40,526 nt of DNA from Gemmatimonadaceae bacterium (GTDB taxonomy: Bacteria > Gemmatimonadota > Gemmatimonadetes > Gemmatimonadales > Gemmatimonadaceae). Under the pieces are notes generated by a model. The model was not told where the DNA came from. It saw only the letters and a list, made by a program, of their open reading frames with translations, and did not search any database. This document shows positions 9,249-17,390 of the stretch, in pieces. Location: contig JACMME010000205.1 of NCBI GenBank assembly GCA_014379205.1, forward strand, positions 1 through 40,526. The letters are read 5' to 3'. How positions within the stretch are numbered: the stretch's first letter is position 1; every line of letters begins with the position of its first letter. The position numbers were made by a program, and so were the translations under genes.

Positions 9249-10673
9249 GTGGCACGCGTAGACGTCATCATGCCGCAAATGGGAGAATCGATCGCTGAAG
9301 GCACGCTCTCACGCTGGCTGAAGAAGGCCGGGGACGAGATCAAGCGCGACGAGCCCCTCTTTGAGATTTCAACTGACAAGGTGGATGCGGAAATCCCGGC
9401 TCCCGCGGCTGGTGTCCTGGCGGAGATATTGGTGCTGGAAGGCCAGACTGTTCCCGTTCAGACGGTTGTCGCGCGTCTCGAGACCGAAAAAGGTGCAGCT
9501 GTGGCGTCGCCTGCAGGTGGTGATGGTGCCGGTGCTGCAAAGGCGGACTCCGACGTTGCGAAGGCCGCGGTGGGCCCTGGCGCAGGATCGCCTGTCGCGA
9601 AGTCGCAGGTCGCTGGCGCGTCTGCAGCTGGGGGCCCCCCCCCGACTAAAGAATCTATGCCGCCGCGATCATCCGGCCCGCAGCGTTCCAGTGCATCGCC
9701 AACCATACCATCCCCAGGGCACGGAGGAAGCTCCCTCGAAGAGCGGCTCCGCACGCGCTCGTCTCCTCTCGTTCGAAAGATTGCGGCGGAGCACGGCATC
9801 GAGATCGCCGCGATGCCGGGGTCGGGGATAGCGGGAAGGGTCACGAAGAAGGACATCCTGAGTTTCATTGAATCGGGTGGAGCCGCTCTAGTGACGGGAG
9901 ACAGCTCGGCGTCCTCAGTGCACGCGACTGCTCCGTCCACCCACGGGCCTCTACCGAAACCGTGGCCTGGTGACAGCGTCGAGCCCATGTCGAAAATGCG
10001 CGCACTCATCAGCGAGCACATGGTGGGATCGCGCCGCACATCAGCGCACGTAACGTCGTTCATGGAGATCGACTTCACGCGAGTTTCGCGAATACGGGCC
10101 AAGAACCGAGCGGCTTTCGAGGCGGCGTCCGGGCAGAAGCTCACGTACATGCCGTTCATCATCAAGTCCGTTGTAGACGGCCTCAAGCAGTTCCCCGTTA
10201 TGAATGCGTCGGTAGCTGGCACGAACGTTATTTACAGAAAGCAATTCAACATCGGGGTCGCCGTCGCGCTCGATTGGGGACTGATCGTTCCTGTCATCAG
10301 GGGCGCAGACGATCTTTCACTCAGCGGAATAACCCGGGCCCTCAACGATCTTGCTGACCGCGCGCGCGTTAAGAAACTGGATCCCCGTGAGGTGCAGGAC
10401 GGCACGTTCACCATTACTAATCCCGGGGTCTTCGGCTCGCTCATGGGAACCCCGATCATCAATCAACCCCAGGTCGCCATTCTGGGTGTCGGGGCGATCG
10501 AGAAACGACCCAAGGTAATCAGCGGCGCCGATGGTGAAGACACCATTGCGATTCGGACGTGCGCATACTTCTCAATTTCTTTCGACCATCGAATAATTGA
10601 TGGTGCGATCGCCGACCAGTTCCTCGCATTCGTCAAGAAAACCATAGAGACGTTTCCGGACGCGGGAATCTGA
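9249..10673 (+). CDS. 2-Oxoacid dehydrogenase E2 (dihydrolipoyl acyltransferase)
   Basis: The 474-residue E2 starts at GTG 9249, with GGAGGAG a few bases upstream. Domain order: lipoyl domain (residues about 1-78, lipoyl lysine in STDKVDAE); a long Ala/Pro/Gly/Ser linker; the peripheral subunit-binding domain (SPLVRKIAAEHGI, GSGIAGRVTKKDI); a second linker; then the catalytic acyltransferase domain, whose active-site motif DHRIIDG is near the C-terminus. It forms the core that carries acyl groups from E1 to CoA. The first linker contains G5C9 in the DNA (9630-9643), a slippage-prone tract, but the frame is intact. It is called acetyl- or branched-chain-acyltransferase; the substrate is undecided. 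Confidence 0.93.
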   Translation: MARVDVIMPQMGESIAEGTLSRWLKKAGDEIKRDEPLFEISTDKVDAEIPAPAAGVLAEILVLEGQTVPVQTVVARLETEKGAAVASPAGGDGAGAAKADSDVAKAAVGPGAGSPVAKSQVAGASAAGGPPPTKESMPPRSSGPQRSSASPTIPSPGHGGSSLEERLRTRSSPLVRKIAAEHGIEIAAMPGSGIAGRVTKKDILSFIESGGAALVTGDSSASSVHATAPSTHGPLPKPWPGDSVEPMSKMRALISEHMVGSRRTSAHVTSFMEIDFTRVSRIRAKNRAAFEAASGQKLTYMPFIIKSVVDGLKQFPVMNASVAGTNVIYRKQFNIGVAVALDWGLIVPVIRGADDLSLSGITRALNDLADRARVKKLDPREVQDGTFTITNPGVFGSLMGTPIINQPQVAILGVGAIEKRPKVISGADGEDTIAIRTCAYFSISFDHRIIDGAIADQFLAFVKKTIETFPDAGI

Positions 10674-13658: not shown

Positions 13659-14645
13659 GTGCCAGAAAACCTTGACTACGATGTAGTGATAGTTGGTGCA
13701 GGGCCGGCCGGGCTGTGCGCCGGTATGTATGCGGGCCGCGCCATGCTCAAGGCAGTTCTCATCGAACGGGGGGCTTCCGGAGGCGAGCTACTCAACACCG
13801 AGATCATCGAGGACTATCCCGGCTTCGAGCACATCGATGGGTGGGACCTCGCTCAGAAGTTCGAGAGCCACGCCCTCAAGTTCGGCGTTGAGATCCATCG
13901 GAAGACAGTGGAGACGGTTAGGAAGCTTGATTCCGGCACCTTCGAGACAATAACCGACGGCGGAGATACGTACCGATCACCAACGGTCATTGTCACAGCA
14001 GGTGGAACTCCCATAAAACTCGGGGTGCCCGGCGAACTCGAGTTCGCGGGAAAGGGAGTCTCCTACTGCGCCATCTGCGACGGAGCTTTTTTCAGGGGCC
14101 ATACGATCGCCGTTATTGGCGGAGGTGATGCAGCCGCAGAGGAAAGCGATTTTCTGACGCGTTACGCAGAGAAGGTTTATCTTGTTCACCGGCGTGAGGA
14201 GCTACGTGCCTCCAAGATCCTGCAGAAGCGCGTCTTCGAAAATCCCAAGATCGTGCCGATCTGGAACTCCGTGGTCGAGCGGATCGATGCAGACGAGCAG
14301 GGGCTGGTCAACAACATTGTCCTGCGGGATGCAATAACGGCCGAAAGGCGCGATCTCACCGCTTCGGGCGTTTTTATATTCATCGGATTCCGTCCGAATA
14401 CGGGAATTATTGAAGGTCACATCGGTCACGACTCGAGCGGCTATCTCACCACAGACGCGAACATGGAGACTTCTATACGTGGACTTTTCGCGGCTGGCGA
14501 TCTGCGTTCCCAGCTTACGCGCCAGGTGACTACAGCGGTCGGGGATGCGACCACCGCGACGATCGCTGCAGAGAAGTATCTGACCGCCCTCAAGAGCGGC
14601 CAGACCAGTCCGGAGATAGCAGGCTCGGGAGGTTACGCGGTATGA
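13659..14645 (+). CDS. trxB: Thioredoxin reductase (NADPH)
   Basis: The 328-residue flavoprotein has the FAD motif GAGPAGLCAGMYAGRA near residue 12, the redox site Cys137-Ala-Ile-Cys140-Asp, the NADPH fold motif GGGDAAAEE followed by VHRREELRAS (HRRxxxR, typical for NADPH), and the C-terminal GLFAAGD FAD motif. It would reduce thioredoxin or a similar disulfide carrier. The GTG start at 13659 is supported by AAGGA at 13647-13651, 7 bases upstream. It overlaps the next gene by 4 bases (ATGA). Its place between the two selenoprotein genes suggests that it powers them. No thioredoxin is encoded in the window. Confidence 0.95.
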   Translation: MPENLDYDVVIVGAGPAGLCAGMYAGRAMLKAVLIERGASGGELLNTEIIEDYPGFEHIDGWDLAQKFESHALKFGVEIHRKTVETVRKLDSGTFETITDGGDTYRSPTVIVTAGGTPIKLGVPGELEFAGKGVSYCAICDGAFFRGHTIAVIGGGDAAAEESDFLTRYAEKVYLVHRREELRASKILQKRVFENPKIVPIWNSVVERIDADEQGLVNNIVLRDAITAERRDLTASGVFIFIGFRPNTGIIEGHIGHDSSGYLTTDANMETSIRGLFAAGDLRSQLTRQVTTAVGDATTATIAAEKYLTALKSGQTSPEIAGSGGYAV

Positions 14646-15283
14646 TCGTCCAGACGTTCACGGTGGGACCATTTCAGGAAAATGCGTATCTTCTCATCGA
14701 CGAGGACGCTCAGCATGCTGTGTTGATAGATCCAGGCGATGATGGCAAGCGTCTCCTCGACGCCGTCGCGAAGTCGGGCGCCCAGCTGGATGCGATTTGG
14801 CTCACGCACGCGCATGTAGATCATGTCGGCGGCATTGCGGCCATCAAGCGCGTCTCGAACGTCCCTGTGTACCTGCACCCGCTCGACCGCCCGCTGTACG
14901 ACAATGCCAAGCGTCACGGTGAAGTTTTCGGTCTGCAAGTCGAGTCGCCGCCGCCGCCCGACAGAGACATGGCAGCCGGCGATACACTGCGTGTCGGTGA
15001 GCTGACGTTTGCCGTGATGCATACTCCCGGTCACGCGCCTGGGCACGTCGTTATTCACGGGCACGGGATTGCATTTGTGGGAGATTGTCTCTTTGCTGGT
15101 TCAGTTGGGCGCACTGACCTGCCATTCTCGAACGGCGCTGAGCTGGCCCGATCGCTCGAGCGTATTTGCGCACTTTCGAGCGAGACCATCGTCTATGCCG
15201 GGCATGGGCCACCGACTACCATCGCGGAGGAGCTCGAAAGCAATCCGTTCATCAACGGGTCCGTTCGGATTTCGGGCCGATGA
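14642..15283 (+). CDS. Metallo-beta-lactamase-fold hydrolase (glyoxalase II-like)
   Basis: The 213-residue protein begins MIVQTFTVGPFQENAYLL and has the metal-binding motif THAHVDHVGG near residue 55, then HTPGHAPGH, GDCLFAGSVGRTDL and YAGHGP, giving the expected His/Asp ligands for two metals. The family includes hydroxyacylglutathione hydrolases, which cleave thioesters such as S-lactoylglutathione, and persulfide dioxygenase relatives. Substrate is not settled; glyoxalase II-like is the best guess. It sits in an ATGA chain between trxB and the selenocysteine AhpD-like gene, suggesting a role in thiol metabolism or detoxification. Confidence 0.85.
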   Translation: MIVQTFTVGPFQENAYLLIDEDAQHAVLIDPGDDGKRLLDAVAKSGAQLDAIWLTHAHVDHVGGIAAIKRVSNVPVYLHPLDRPLYDNAKRHGEVFGLQVESPPPPDRDMAAGDTLRVGELTFAVMHTPGHAPGHVVIHGHGIAFVGDCLFAGSVGRTDLPFSNGAELARSLERICALSSETIVYAGHGPPTTIAEELESNPFINGSVRISGR

Positions 15284-15813
15284 GCGACGTACCACGCCTG
15301 CCAATGCTCGGGCCGGAAAATGTCAGTGGGAAGGTGCGCGCAATCTTCGAAGCCTTCCTCAAGGAACGCGGTAACATTCCGAATCTTTTTCGCACGGCGG
15401 CCCACCGTGAACCGATAGCGGAAACGCTGTTCGCTCACATGCGAGCCGTTATGGGACCCGGCCAGGTGGACGTGCGCCTCAAGGAGCTGCTCTCGGTGCG
15501 CGTGTCACATATCAACCTGTGCGATTATTGACTTTCATCTCATACTGCCTTGGCAAGGCGGCTGGGAACGACTGAAAAGGAGCTCGAAGCGCTAGAGCGT
15601 GGCGATTTCGCTGACTTTGAACCATCCTGGCGCGCGGCGCTGGAGTTCGCAGAAGCGATGACGCCTACACGTGGCCTTGCCAGCGAAGCAGTGTACGGCC
15701 GGGTTTCGGAGTATTGGACGGCGGCGCAGACCGTCGAGATAACGGCTGTGATAGCGCTTTTCAATTACTTCAATCGCTTTGCGAATGCCTTGCGTATCCC
15801 GCCAACGACGTGA
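15280..15813 (+). CDS. AhpD-like (carboxymuconolactone decarboxylase family) selenoprotein, CxxU
   Basis: The frame from ATG 15280 (ATGA overlap with the hydrolase gene) to TGA 15811-15813 is interrupted only by TGA at 15529-15531 (codon 84). Residues 81-88 read C-D-Y-U-L-S-S-H, i.e. the AhpD redox motif C-x-x-C-x3-H with selenocysteine replacing the second, nucleophilic cysteine. The sequence before it (SVRVSHIN) and after it (ALARRLGTTEKELEAL, then ITAVIALFNYFNRFANAL) is continuous family homology, and the full 177 residues match the peroxidase-related CMD proteins. A compact stem-loop (15545-15561) follows the UGA. Family members relay electrons to, or act as, peroxidases. The substrate here is unknown. 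Without recoding, an 83-residue fragment ending before the active site would be produced. Confidence 0.92.
15529..15531 (+). other. Recoded UGA (selenocysteine 84) in AhpD-like protein
   Basis: This in-frame TGA follows TGC-GAT-TAT, so the protein would read Cys-Asp-Tyr-Sec. The histidine four residues later is the conserved partner in AhpD. The frame stays open and homologous to 15813. Confidence 0.9.
15545..15561 (+). promoter_or_regulatory. Bacterial SECIS-like stem-loop of the AhpD-like gene
   Basis: CUGCCUU (15545-15551) pairs with AAGGCGG (15555-15561), with one G-U pair and otherwise perfect, around the three-base loop GGC. The stem starts 13 bases and the loop 20 bases after the UGA. 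A short stem with G at the start of the loop, at about this distance, is the known bacterial SECIS pattern for SelB binding. Confidence 0.75.
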
Positions 15814-15849
15814 AGCGCAAACAACCGGTGCGTGATTATGGAGCATGAG

Positions 15850-17277
15850 ATGTCCGAAAAATTCCGCGACGAAAAGGATCCACTCGGCACTTTGAAGGTG
15901 CCGGCATACGCGCTGTACGGAGTGCAAACACTGCGGGCGGTTCAGAACTTTCCCATAAGCGGTCTGCGGGCGCTTCCAGCATTTGTGATTGCTACCGTGC
16001 GCATCAAGAAGGCTGCCGCACTCACTCACATGGAAACGGGGAGGCTCGACGCAAAACTCGGGCGCGCGATAGTCAGCGCTGCCGACGAAGTTCTGGGTGG
16101 GCAACATCATGAACACTTCGTGGTCGATGTCTATCAGGCGGGCGCGGGGACGTCTCATAACATGAACACGAATGAGATACTGGCCAACCGCGCAAACGAG
16201 TTGCTCGGCGGCTCGCGCGGCGAGTATGCGCCGGTTCATCCCAACGATCACGTCAACATGGCCCAGTCAACCAATGACGTGATTCCCACCGCCATCCGAC
16301 TTGCCTGTCTCGCCGAGCTCGACGGTCTCGTGGACGCCTACTCGAGCCTACGTGACGAGCTGCTTGCCAAGGGGGAGGAATTCGACGACGTCCTCAAGTC
16401 AGGTCGCACGCACTTGCAGGACGCTATGCCCATCCGGCTCGGCCAGGAATTCAAGGCGTACGGAGGAACGATTCAGCGCTGCATACGGCGCATTCAGGAA
16501 TCGGCTGATTACCTGCGTGATCTCGGAATCGGCGGGAGCGCGGTAGGCACGGGAGTAACGGTCGAACCGGAGTATCCCGATCTCATGCGCAAGCACCTGA
16601 CTGCCATTTCGGGACTGACGCTCCGCACAGGCGAAGACAGAATACAGCTCATGCAGAGCATGGGCGACATTGCGGCCTTCAGCGCAAGCCTGCGTGGACT
16701 CGCACTCGATCTGAGCAAGATTGCCAGCGATCTTCGACTGATGGCGAGCGGACCCAGGACGGGCTTTGATGAGATCCGTCTTCCCGCCGTTCAGCCCGGC
16801 TCCTCCATCATGCCCGGGAAGGTGAATCCCTCGATTCCGGAGATGGTGAACCAGGTCTGCTTTCAGGTGATCGGAAACGACACGTGCGTTGCCATTTCCG
16901 CCGAGCATGGCCAGCTCGAACTCAACGTCATGATGCCCGTGATCGCGTACAACGTCCTTCTCTCAATGCAGATTCTCAGGAACGCAGGCGTCTCCCTCGC
17001 CGAGCGCACGATCGAAGGCATCGAGGCCAACCGCGAGCAGTGCCAGTACTGGCTCGAGCGGTCCGCGGCGCTCGCCACGGCTCTCGCTCCGCAGATCGGC
17101 TATGCACGAGCGGCGGAGATCAGCAAACAATCCGTAAAAGAGAACACTCTCATCAGGGAACTCGTGCGCCGCGAACAGATTCTTCCGGACGATCAGATCG
17201 ATGAGGTGTTGGACATGCGCAAGATGACCGAGATCGGTGTGCCCGGTGGCAAGTTTGGGGCGGCCGCTGCGGGCTGA
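15850..17277 (+). CDS. aspA: Aspartate ammonia-lyase
   Basis: This 475-residue protein belongs to the aspartase/fumarase superfamily; it would convert L-aspartate to fumarate and ammonia. The signature is GSSIMPGKVNPSIPEMVNQV, with the VxxxVNQV ending typical of aspartase rather than class II fumarase. Also seen are YGVQTLRAVQNFPIS, GAGTSHNMNTNE, SGRTHLQDAMP and QLELNVMMPVI. Note the Gly (PGKVNP) where many aspartases have Ala. The ATG at 15850 has GGAG 6 bases upstream; GTG 15832 or ATG 15838 in the same frame would add a few residues. It ends just before a large inverted repeat and an Rrf2 regulator gene. Confidence 0.88.
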   Translation: MSEKFRDEKDPLGTLKVPAYALYGVQTLRAVQNFPISGLRALPAFVIATVRIKKAAALTHMETGRLDAKLGRAIVSAADEVLGGQHHEHFVVDVYQAGAGTSHNMNTNEILANRANELLGGSRGEYAPVHPNDHVNMAQSTNDVIPTAIRLACLAELDGLVDAYSSLRDELLAKGEEFDDVLKSGRTHLQDAMPIRLGQEFKAYGGTIQRCIRRIQESADYLRDLGIGGSAVGTGVTVEPEYPDLMRKHLTAISGLTLRTGEDRIQLMQSMGDIAAFSASLRGLALDLSKIASDLRLMASGPRTGFDEIRLPAVQPGSSIMPGKVNPSIPEMVNQVCFQVIGNDTCVAISAEHGQLELNVMMPVIAYNVLLSMQILRNAGVSLAERTIEGIEANREQCQYWLERSAALATALAPQIGYARAAEISKQSVKENTLIRELVRREQILPDDQIDEVLDMRKMTEIGVPGGKFGAAAAG

Positions 17278-17297: not shown

Positions 17298-17390
17298 GTG
17301 GGGAGTAGGGGTTGGGGGATAGGGAGTAACTGAACGCGCAACCAACTCAAGCCTCAGCGCACTCCCCATCCCCCAACCCCCACTCCCCAC
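17298..17390 (+). repeat. Large purine/pyrimidine inverted repeat (30-base arms)
   Basis: The 30-base arm at 17298-17327 is almost all G and A with three T. Its complement is found at 17361-17390 with only two mismatches, separated by a 33-base loop. The arm contains several runs of three to five G, and a similar G-rich stretch begins at 17279. It could be a strong hairpin (terminator of aspA without a T-run) or form a G-quadruplex or triplex. No coding potential is seen in 17278-17426. Confidence 0.8.

Follow-up and report, generated by a model that had tools for sequence, protein, structure and literature searches.

The question raised by this locus is whether a TGA codon within an AhpD-like reading frame is read as selenocysteine (Sec), and how Sec and cysteine have been exchanged at that position among related proteins. 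The locus lies in a 40,526-nucleotide stretch of DNA from a Gemmatimonadaceae bacterium, which was analysed as a whole and is referred to here as the window. The predicted AhpD-like (CMD family) selenoprotein gene occupies positions 15280..15813 of the forward strand, beginning with an ATG at 15280, ending with a TGA stop codon at 15811–15813, and comprising 177 codons when the internal UGA is read through. Codon 84 (15529..15531, forward strand) is the only in-frame TGA within this frame and falls on the second position of a CxxCxxxH motif, giving C81-D-Y-U84-L-S-S-H88 with a predicted Sec84. The original prediction described one TGA interrupting a 177-residue AhpD-like frame, and its coordinates and motif were reproduced. 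It also placed homology on both sides of the UGA, in agreement with the match to the Pfam CMD model PF02627 (62.9 bits, residues 46–126, cut-off 23) and with relatives that align across residues ~1–176, flanking the UGA. The frame stays open 3′ of the UGA, and codon 84 aligns with Cys when the protein is compared with its homologues. The in-frame UGA at the second Cys of CxxCxxxH is confirmed, and the earlier reading of the gene as encoding an AhpD-like selenoprotein is supported.

In a mechanically generated ORF list, the gene appears as two ORFs divided at the UGA, one ending at 15531 and the other starting at 15550, the fragmentation that had been foreseen for gene callers. The last residue of a public predicted protein, P0080, directly precedes the Sec column (...SHINGCEY), and its N-terminus is penicillin-amidase-like. 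Judged by its sequence, P0080 probably represents a gene call truncated at the UGA, and its contig of origin is possibly chimeric.

The codon at the Sec column was compared in three overlapping collections of genomes. From a scan of named genomes that yielded 225 relatives, the best 80 were taken; with the window added, the resulting 81 sequences carry UGA in 55 cases, TGC in 25, and TGT in one. Without the window, the UGA count is 54 among these best 80 of 225 relatives, with the same 25 TGC codons and single TGT codon; the close relatives L040–L044 carry TGC. The second collection consisted of the window's own genome and 39 relatives, and six of the best 80 loci come from these same genomes. 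Some match at E 0.001 is found in 27 of its 40 genomes, and close orthologues, the window's included, number seven: those of the own genome, G012, G027, and G035 have UGA, and those of G006, G008, and G017 have TGC. The third was a phylum-wide draw of 298 Gemmatimonadota genomes, including the own genome and many shared with the best-80 genomes. Matches at E 1e-30 numbered 31, and those below 1e-59 numbered 27; the latter threshold was chosen after the gap to the next match (8e-43) had been seen. One TGA is present in 24 of these 27 branch members and none in the other three; one of five weaker matches has a TGA. Single in-frame TGA codons also occur in distant AhpD-family genes, namely at locus L157, where the codon lies within CPFUID, and in matches from genomes G005, G015, G024, G029, G032, G038, and G039, all of which are candidate further selenoproteins by sequence.

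Immediately downstream of codon 84 lies a predicted bacterial SECIS element (15545..15561, forward strand), with stem arms at 15545–15551 and 15555–15561 and a GGC loop at 15552–15554. The hairpin starts 13 nucleotides 3′ of the UGA and contains seven pairs, one of them U–G. Bacterial SECIS constraints given in passages of PMC13188914 comprise an upper stem of 4–16 bp, an apical loop of 3–9 nucleotides, a G in the first two loop positions, and a spacing of 16–37 nucleotides, taken here as the distance from UGA to loop. The stem of seven pairs, the GGC loop, and the 20 nucleotides between UGA and loop fall within these ranges, which bears out the earlier description of a near-perfect 7-bp stem, capped by a GGC loop and beginning 13 bases after the UGA, and of a fit to the published pattern. 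When a 62-nucleotide stretch is folded alone, its stability is like that of shuffled sequences (z −0.32), and Rfam at gathering scores gives no match here. The single-sequence fold is unremarkable; the case for a SECIS element is comparative.

Of the 55 UGA genes, counting that of the window, 53 have all seven pairs, compared with 1 of 26 Cys genes; the loop reads GGC in 53 of the 55. UGA genes lacking the shared hairpin are found in the Bacillota (L105 and L117), where another SECIS may operate. Synonymous recoding of the window retained all seven pairs in only 43 of 200,000 trials; some perfect 7-bp hairpin over a broad range arose in 827 of 20,000, a looser criterion under which 4 of 26 Cys genes have a hairpin too. 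Across the 53 hairpins, all 371 of 371 cells are paired, and four of the seven pairs include changes on both sides. The number of double-change cells (47) compares with 16.8 in shuffles, none of 500 of which reached as high, and pairing falls to 34.5–62.5% when the partner is shifted by 1–3 columns. Two further covariation statistics are weak: pairs with double changes numbered 4 versus 2.4, a value reached in 26 of 500 shuffles, and additional pair types numbered 7 versus 7.5, a value reached in 500 of 500. Stems in the phylum draw have seven pairs in 23 of 24 UGA genes and six in the remaining one; the loop is GGC in 23 and GTC in one, and the stems of L150, L153, and L154 are re-paired with different letters. 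A search pattern combining UGA and hairpin, derived from these same sequences, has a single match in the window and none in 100 shuffles.

The selenium machinery of the genome was surveyed in an assembly of 339 contigs that is 91.76% complete and 3.91% contaminated. A search for selA, selB, the tRNA-Sec gene, and selD had been proposed, and all except selA were recovered: tRNA-Sec scores 73.5 bits (cut-off 47; anticodon TCA, UCA in the tRNA), SelB scores 343.5 bits (cut-off 242.25), and SelD lies above its cut-off. The selD gene spans two contigs, L121 at the end of C233 and L001:1-678 at the start of C31; these contig ends overlap exactly over 141 bases, and the tRNA-Sec gene directly follows selD. 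SelD is likely a second selenoprotein, since it contains an in-frame TGA and reads CAGUASK. No SelA was found in the own genome; SelA is above its cut-off in 28 of the 40 genomes of the relatives set, with the own genome counted as a miss. In G012, selA is grouped with valS and purH in an arrangement that also occurs in G013. When the own genome was searched with the ValS of G012, the sole match was a leucyl-tRNA synthetase (32% identity; TIGR00396, 794.9 bits); the PurH of G012 had no match there. Valyl-tRNA synthetase is essential. Because valS and purH are missing as well, the whole selA/valS/purH stretch is likely unassembled, and the missing SelA is most likely an assembly gap.

Among relatives, SelB was surveyed for 50 of the 80 loci, the remainder being six already in the 40-genome set and others, mostly near-duplicates. 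SelB exceeds its cut-off in 25 of 29 UGA genomes versus 8 of 21 Cys genomes (Fisher p 0.0007); when the own genome and six relatives are included, the counts are 28 of 33 versus 9 of 24 (p 0.0005). It was not seen in 4 of the 29 UGA genomes (L052, L058, L066, and L068), and genome G035 has the UGA and tRNA-Sec with no SelB above the cut-off. In G017, a 170-bit match interrupted by an in-frame TAA was considered as a possible SelB remnant and rejected, as its sequence reads as part of an ordinary EF-Tu frame with 30% identity to the own SelB.

These data bear on three other readings of the UGA. It is very improbable that the codon arose from a sequencing error, or from a nonsense mutation that has turned a Cys gene into a pseudogene. 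The fragmented draft assembly and the TGC codons of such near kin as L040–L044 would fit this explanation, but they are opposed by the recurrence of UGA in 54 of the 80 other loci (best 80 of 225) and in 24 of 27 Gemmatimonadota branch members, whose genomes partly overlap the best 80, as well as by a hairpin maintained through compensatory change and by the open frame beyond the UGA. Only slightly less remote is ordinary termination at the UGA, with an 83-residue protein or two separate polypeptides as the real product. The ORF lists are split at this codon and P0080 ends at the same place, as termination would predict. Such a product, however, would end short of the conserved catalytic Cys/Sec and His88, which lie at or beyond the UGA; in addition, the Cys relatives are single full-length frames, and the genome encodes tRNA-Sec and SelB. 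The least probable reading, to which we assign hardly any weight, is a genome-wide code change in which UGA specifies an amino acid and selenium plays no part. No support for it was found, and it conflicts with the TGA stops of the neighbouring trxB gene (14645), of the MBL-fold gene (15283), and of the selenoprotein gene itself (15813), and with the location of the in-frame TGA at the catalytic Cys column.

We regard with high confidence, on the strength of comparative sequence data, a model in which this AhpD-like gene would be decoded with Sec84 at its UGA by SelB acting at the downstream hairpin, the product would likely be a CxxU reductase, and the branch with this hairpin would have experienced one gain of Sec and about six losses, with a separate gain in two Bacillota genomes.

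The history of the Sec and Cys forms was assessed with two trees. A careful, unrooted tree of the 81 rows, from which the Sec and hairpin columns had been removed, implies seven state changes, at least five of which are forced by starred branches. A quick tree was built from the 81 rows together with six Gemmatimonadota UGA rows and four distant Cys rows as the outgroup, which were spread over more than one group prior to rooting. Under equal costs, parsimony on this outgroup-rooted tree yields two Sec gains and six Sec-to-Cys losses. One gain comprises L105 and L117, the Bacillota rows that lack the shared hairpin; the other covers 83 of 87 ingroup rows and leaves the Planctomycetota Cys rows L059 and L081 outside. 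Both pairs of rows are inside the branch in the careful tree and near the base in the quick tree. Raising the cost of gain to 1.5 or 2 produces one gain and seven losses, raising the cost of loss to 1.5 or 2 leaves two gains and six losses, and a loss cost of 3 converts the result to 15 gains and no losses. It is important to note that the count of two gains and six losses depends on the outgroup rows, the quick tree, and the costs, and that it describes the best 80 of 225 relatives.

Loss is favoured over repeated gain by the shared hairpin and by L053:3275-3793, a TGT Cys gene from a member of the Terriglobia (Acidobacteriota) that has the whole hairpin and SelB in its genome. From its sequence, L053 likely represents a very recent switch from Sec to Cys. 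Our preferred interpretation, held with some confidence, is that Sec is the old state, that one hairpin is shared across Gemmatimonadota, Acidobacteriota, and others, and that Sec has been lost about six times, both in genomes that have SelB and in genomes that lack it, with L053 having just switched. If true, this would be the reverse of the Cys-to-Sec trend documented in families of this type. According to passages of PMC1794560, Cys-to-Sec replacement is the general trend, with 33 Cys-to-Sec versus 15 Sec-to-Cys events and the latter confined to four families. The same source already reports remnant SECIS elements in Cys homologues, so L053 is a new instance and not a new phenomenon.

That published trend also lends some plausibility to a series of independent Cys-to-Sec gains in place of one gain and about six losses, an alternative that we consider unlikely, if well short of negligible. 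Parsimony delivers it when a loss costs three times as much as a gain (15 gains, no loss), yet the two-gain, six-loss result is unchanged at 1.5 or 2 times. Many gains would require convergence on one hairpin, which stands at the same position in 53 of 55 UGA genes, recurs in all 24 of those from the 298-genome draw (with six pairs in one case), and is retained whole in the Cys gene L053. What this work adds is the evolutionary record of Sec/Cys exchange in the branch. The dense series of Sec and Cys forms, together with a hairpin that serves as an independent marker of ancestry, makes the direction of exchange directly testable.

The setting of the gene was examined for functional clues. Upstream on the forward strand lie trxB, encoding a thioredoxin-disulfide reductase (13659..14645; TIGR01292, 351 bits, cut-off 343.45) and a candidate electron donor, and a gene for an MBL-fold metallo-hydrolase (14642..15283), whose best NCBIfam match is GloB TIGR03413 at 107.4 bits (cut-off 200.8). 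The MBL gene overlaps the trxB stop at its 5′ end and the selenoprotein gene start at its 3′ end; given these overlapping stops and starts, the three genes likely form one transcript. The downstream neighbour, also on the forward strand, is an aspartase/fumarase-family lyase gene (15832..17277; NF008909, 624.1 bits, cut-off 510). A lipoyl-domain 2-oxoacid dehydrogenase E2 subunit, an alternative electron donor, is encoded at 9249..10673 (forward strand). Promoter and terminator searches at the gene gave one match of each type, where shuffled sequences averaged 0.9 and 2.1. The window also contains a G-rich inverted repeat (17298-17390), with 30-nucleotide arms that are 93% complementary, in the interval separating the aspartase-like gene from the gene for an Rrf2-type regulator.

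The trxB and metallo-hydrolase genes do adjoin the selenoprotein gene, as the original prediction had emphasized, but their value as a functional clue is weakened because the arrangement is Gemmatimonadota synteny: within up to 6 kb of sequence on each side, 28 of 34 Gemmatimonadota loci have both genes, and 0 of the 46 remaining loci have either. Three of the six Gemmatimonadota misses have under 2 kb of upstream sequence. The E2 gene belongs to the shared synteny of part of the Gemmatimonadota loci, and in some of this phylum intervening genes encode DUF4149 (L040) or LPG-synthase-TM (L094) proteins. At L094:2160-2687, the selenoprotein gene is on the strand opposite that of trxB, the MBL gene, and the aspartase-like gene; wherever else these genes were located, they share its strand. 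In the Acidobacteriota loci L047 and L090, the conserved upstream genes encode a SurA-like peptidyl-prolyl isomerase and RsbW-like/STAS proteins.

Profile searches place the predicted protein within the CMD/AhpD-like family. It matches the AhpD core model TIGR00778 (55.7 bits, cut-off 27.8) and lies below the cut-offs of the full-length NCBIfam models. For TIGR01926 (peroxidase-related enzyme), it scores 67.2 bits against a cut-off of 81.8; of ten other branch members, four pass (L047, L073, L075, and L102) and six miss, two of them by under 1 bit, and 38 of 39 members of set A3 match this model at E 1e-10 or better. Since four of the ten other members pass, the branch belongs with the TIGR01926 subfamily. 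The top-scoring full-length model is NF053654 (GroundWater_YciW, a YciW-related (seleno)protein), at 75.7 bits; despite the full-length match, the window protein is not a member (cut-off 310), and nine of the ten other members have listed matches with scores of 64–96, none near the cut-off. TIGR00777, which describes AhpD sensu stricto, gives 21.4 bits, below its cut-off of 191.95.

An AlphaFold2 model with Cys replacing Sec (mean pLDDT 96.1) finds its best PDB match in 2prr (TM 0.88), and the five-residue relay Glu-Cys-(Tyr/His)-Cys-His is present as E69, C81, Y83, U84, and H88. The product would likely be a CxxU enzyme that reduces peroxides or disulfides. Once SelB at the downstream hairpin had directed the reading of UGA as Sec84, Glu69 and His88 would activate the Sec84 selenolate. 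The selenolate would attack the substrate, physiologically perhaps a hydroperoxide, and Cys81 would resolve the intermediate to form a Se–S bond. This bond may be reduced by thioredoxin and TrxB, whose gene lies two genes upstream, or by lipoyl-E2. The electron donor is a guess, because the proximity of trxB and MBL is limited to Gemmatimonadota loci and that of the E2 gene to part of them. The M. tuberculosis AhpD is reduced by lipoyl-E2 and Lpd. A peroxidase function is likely by analogy with the family.

A selenoprotein with another job, either an adaptor that reduces a peroxiredoxin, as AhpD does for AhpC, or a Bmp8-like reductive dehalogenase, is a possible though less favoured alternative. 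It would accommodate the fold match to the AhpD-fold debrominase Bmp8 (6ohj, TM 0.78) and the fact that the peroxidase activity of PA0269 is only weak in the passages available. Against it, ahpC-like and dehalogenase-like names are absent among the scanned window genes, which represent part of the ORFs, and the closest structures are peroxidase-related proteins; both arguments are weak. More generally, the redox biology of Gemmatimonadota and Acidobacteriota may be under-read, since ordinary gene calling cuts the protein at its active site.

The window protein shares its fold with PA0269 (2o4d/2ijc) and the peroxidase-related structures 2prr, 3c1l, and 2pfx, in which the second position is Cys in contrast to the Sec predicted here. 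The PA0269 relay described in the available passages (Glu36, Cys48, Tyr50, Cys51, and His55) corresponds to E69, C81, Y83, U84, and H88 with a constant offset of 33. The M. tuberculosis AhpD (1gu9) is a weak fold match (TM 0.53, E 0.43); in a comparison made via PA0269, the relay Glu, CxxC, and His are common to it and the window protein, and its His132 corresponds to Tyr83. We take its second Cys to be the attacking one. The original prediction likewise named the second Cys as the nucleophile, a point to be taken with some reserve; the literature, in the passages available, names both cysteines as catalytic. PA0269 itself shows weak, thiol-dependent reduction of H2O2. The literature consulted also included PMC12013277 and PMC3141380.

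Word searches of the main text of PMC13188914 returned no occurrence of Gemmatimonad or Acidobacteri, and papers retrieved for selenocysteine and Gemmatimonad, judged by title and start of abstract, include none about the window protein. The family itself, as anticipated, is not new: AhpD-like CxxU selenoproteins appear in the available passages of prokaryotic selenoproteome surveys, including marine ones (PMC1088965 and PMC2398784), and those of PMC13188914 include a TIGR01926 selenoprotein entry with MCB9421940.1 as the exemplar. Judged by its predicted sequence, the window protein is a CxxU selenoprotein of this published, TIGR01926-like kind, and, as far as the published members are described in these passages, they share with it the CMD/AhpD domain, the CxxU motif, the Cys homologues, and a SECIS element after the UGA.
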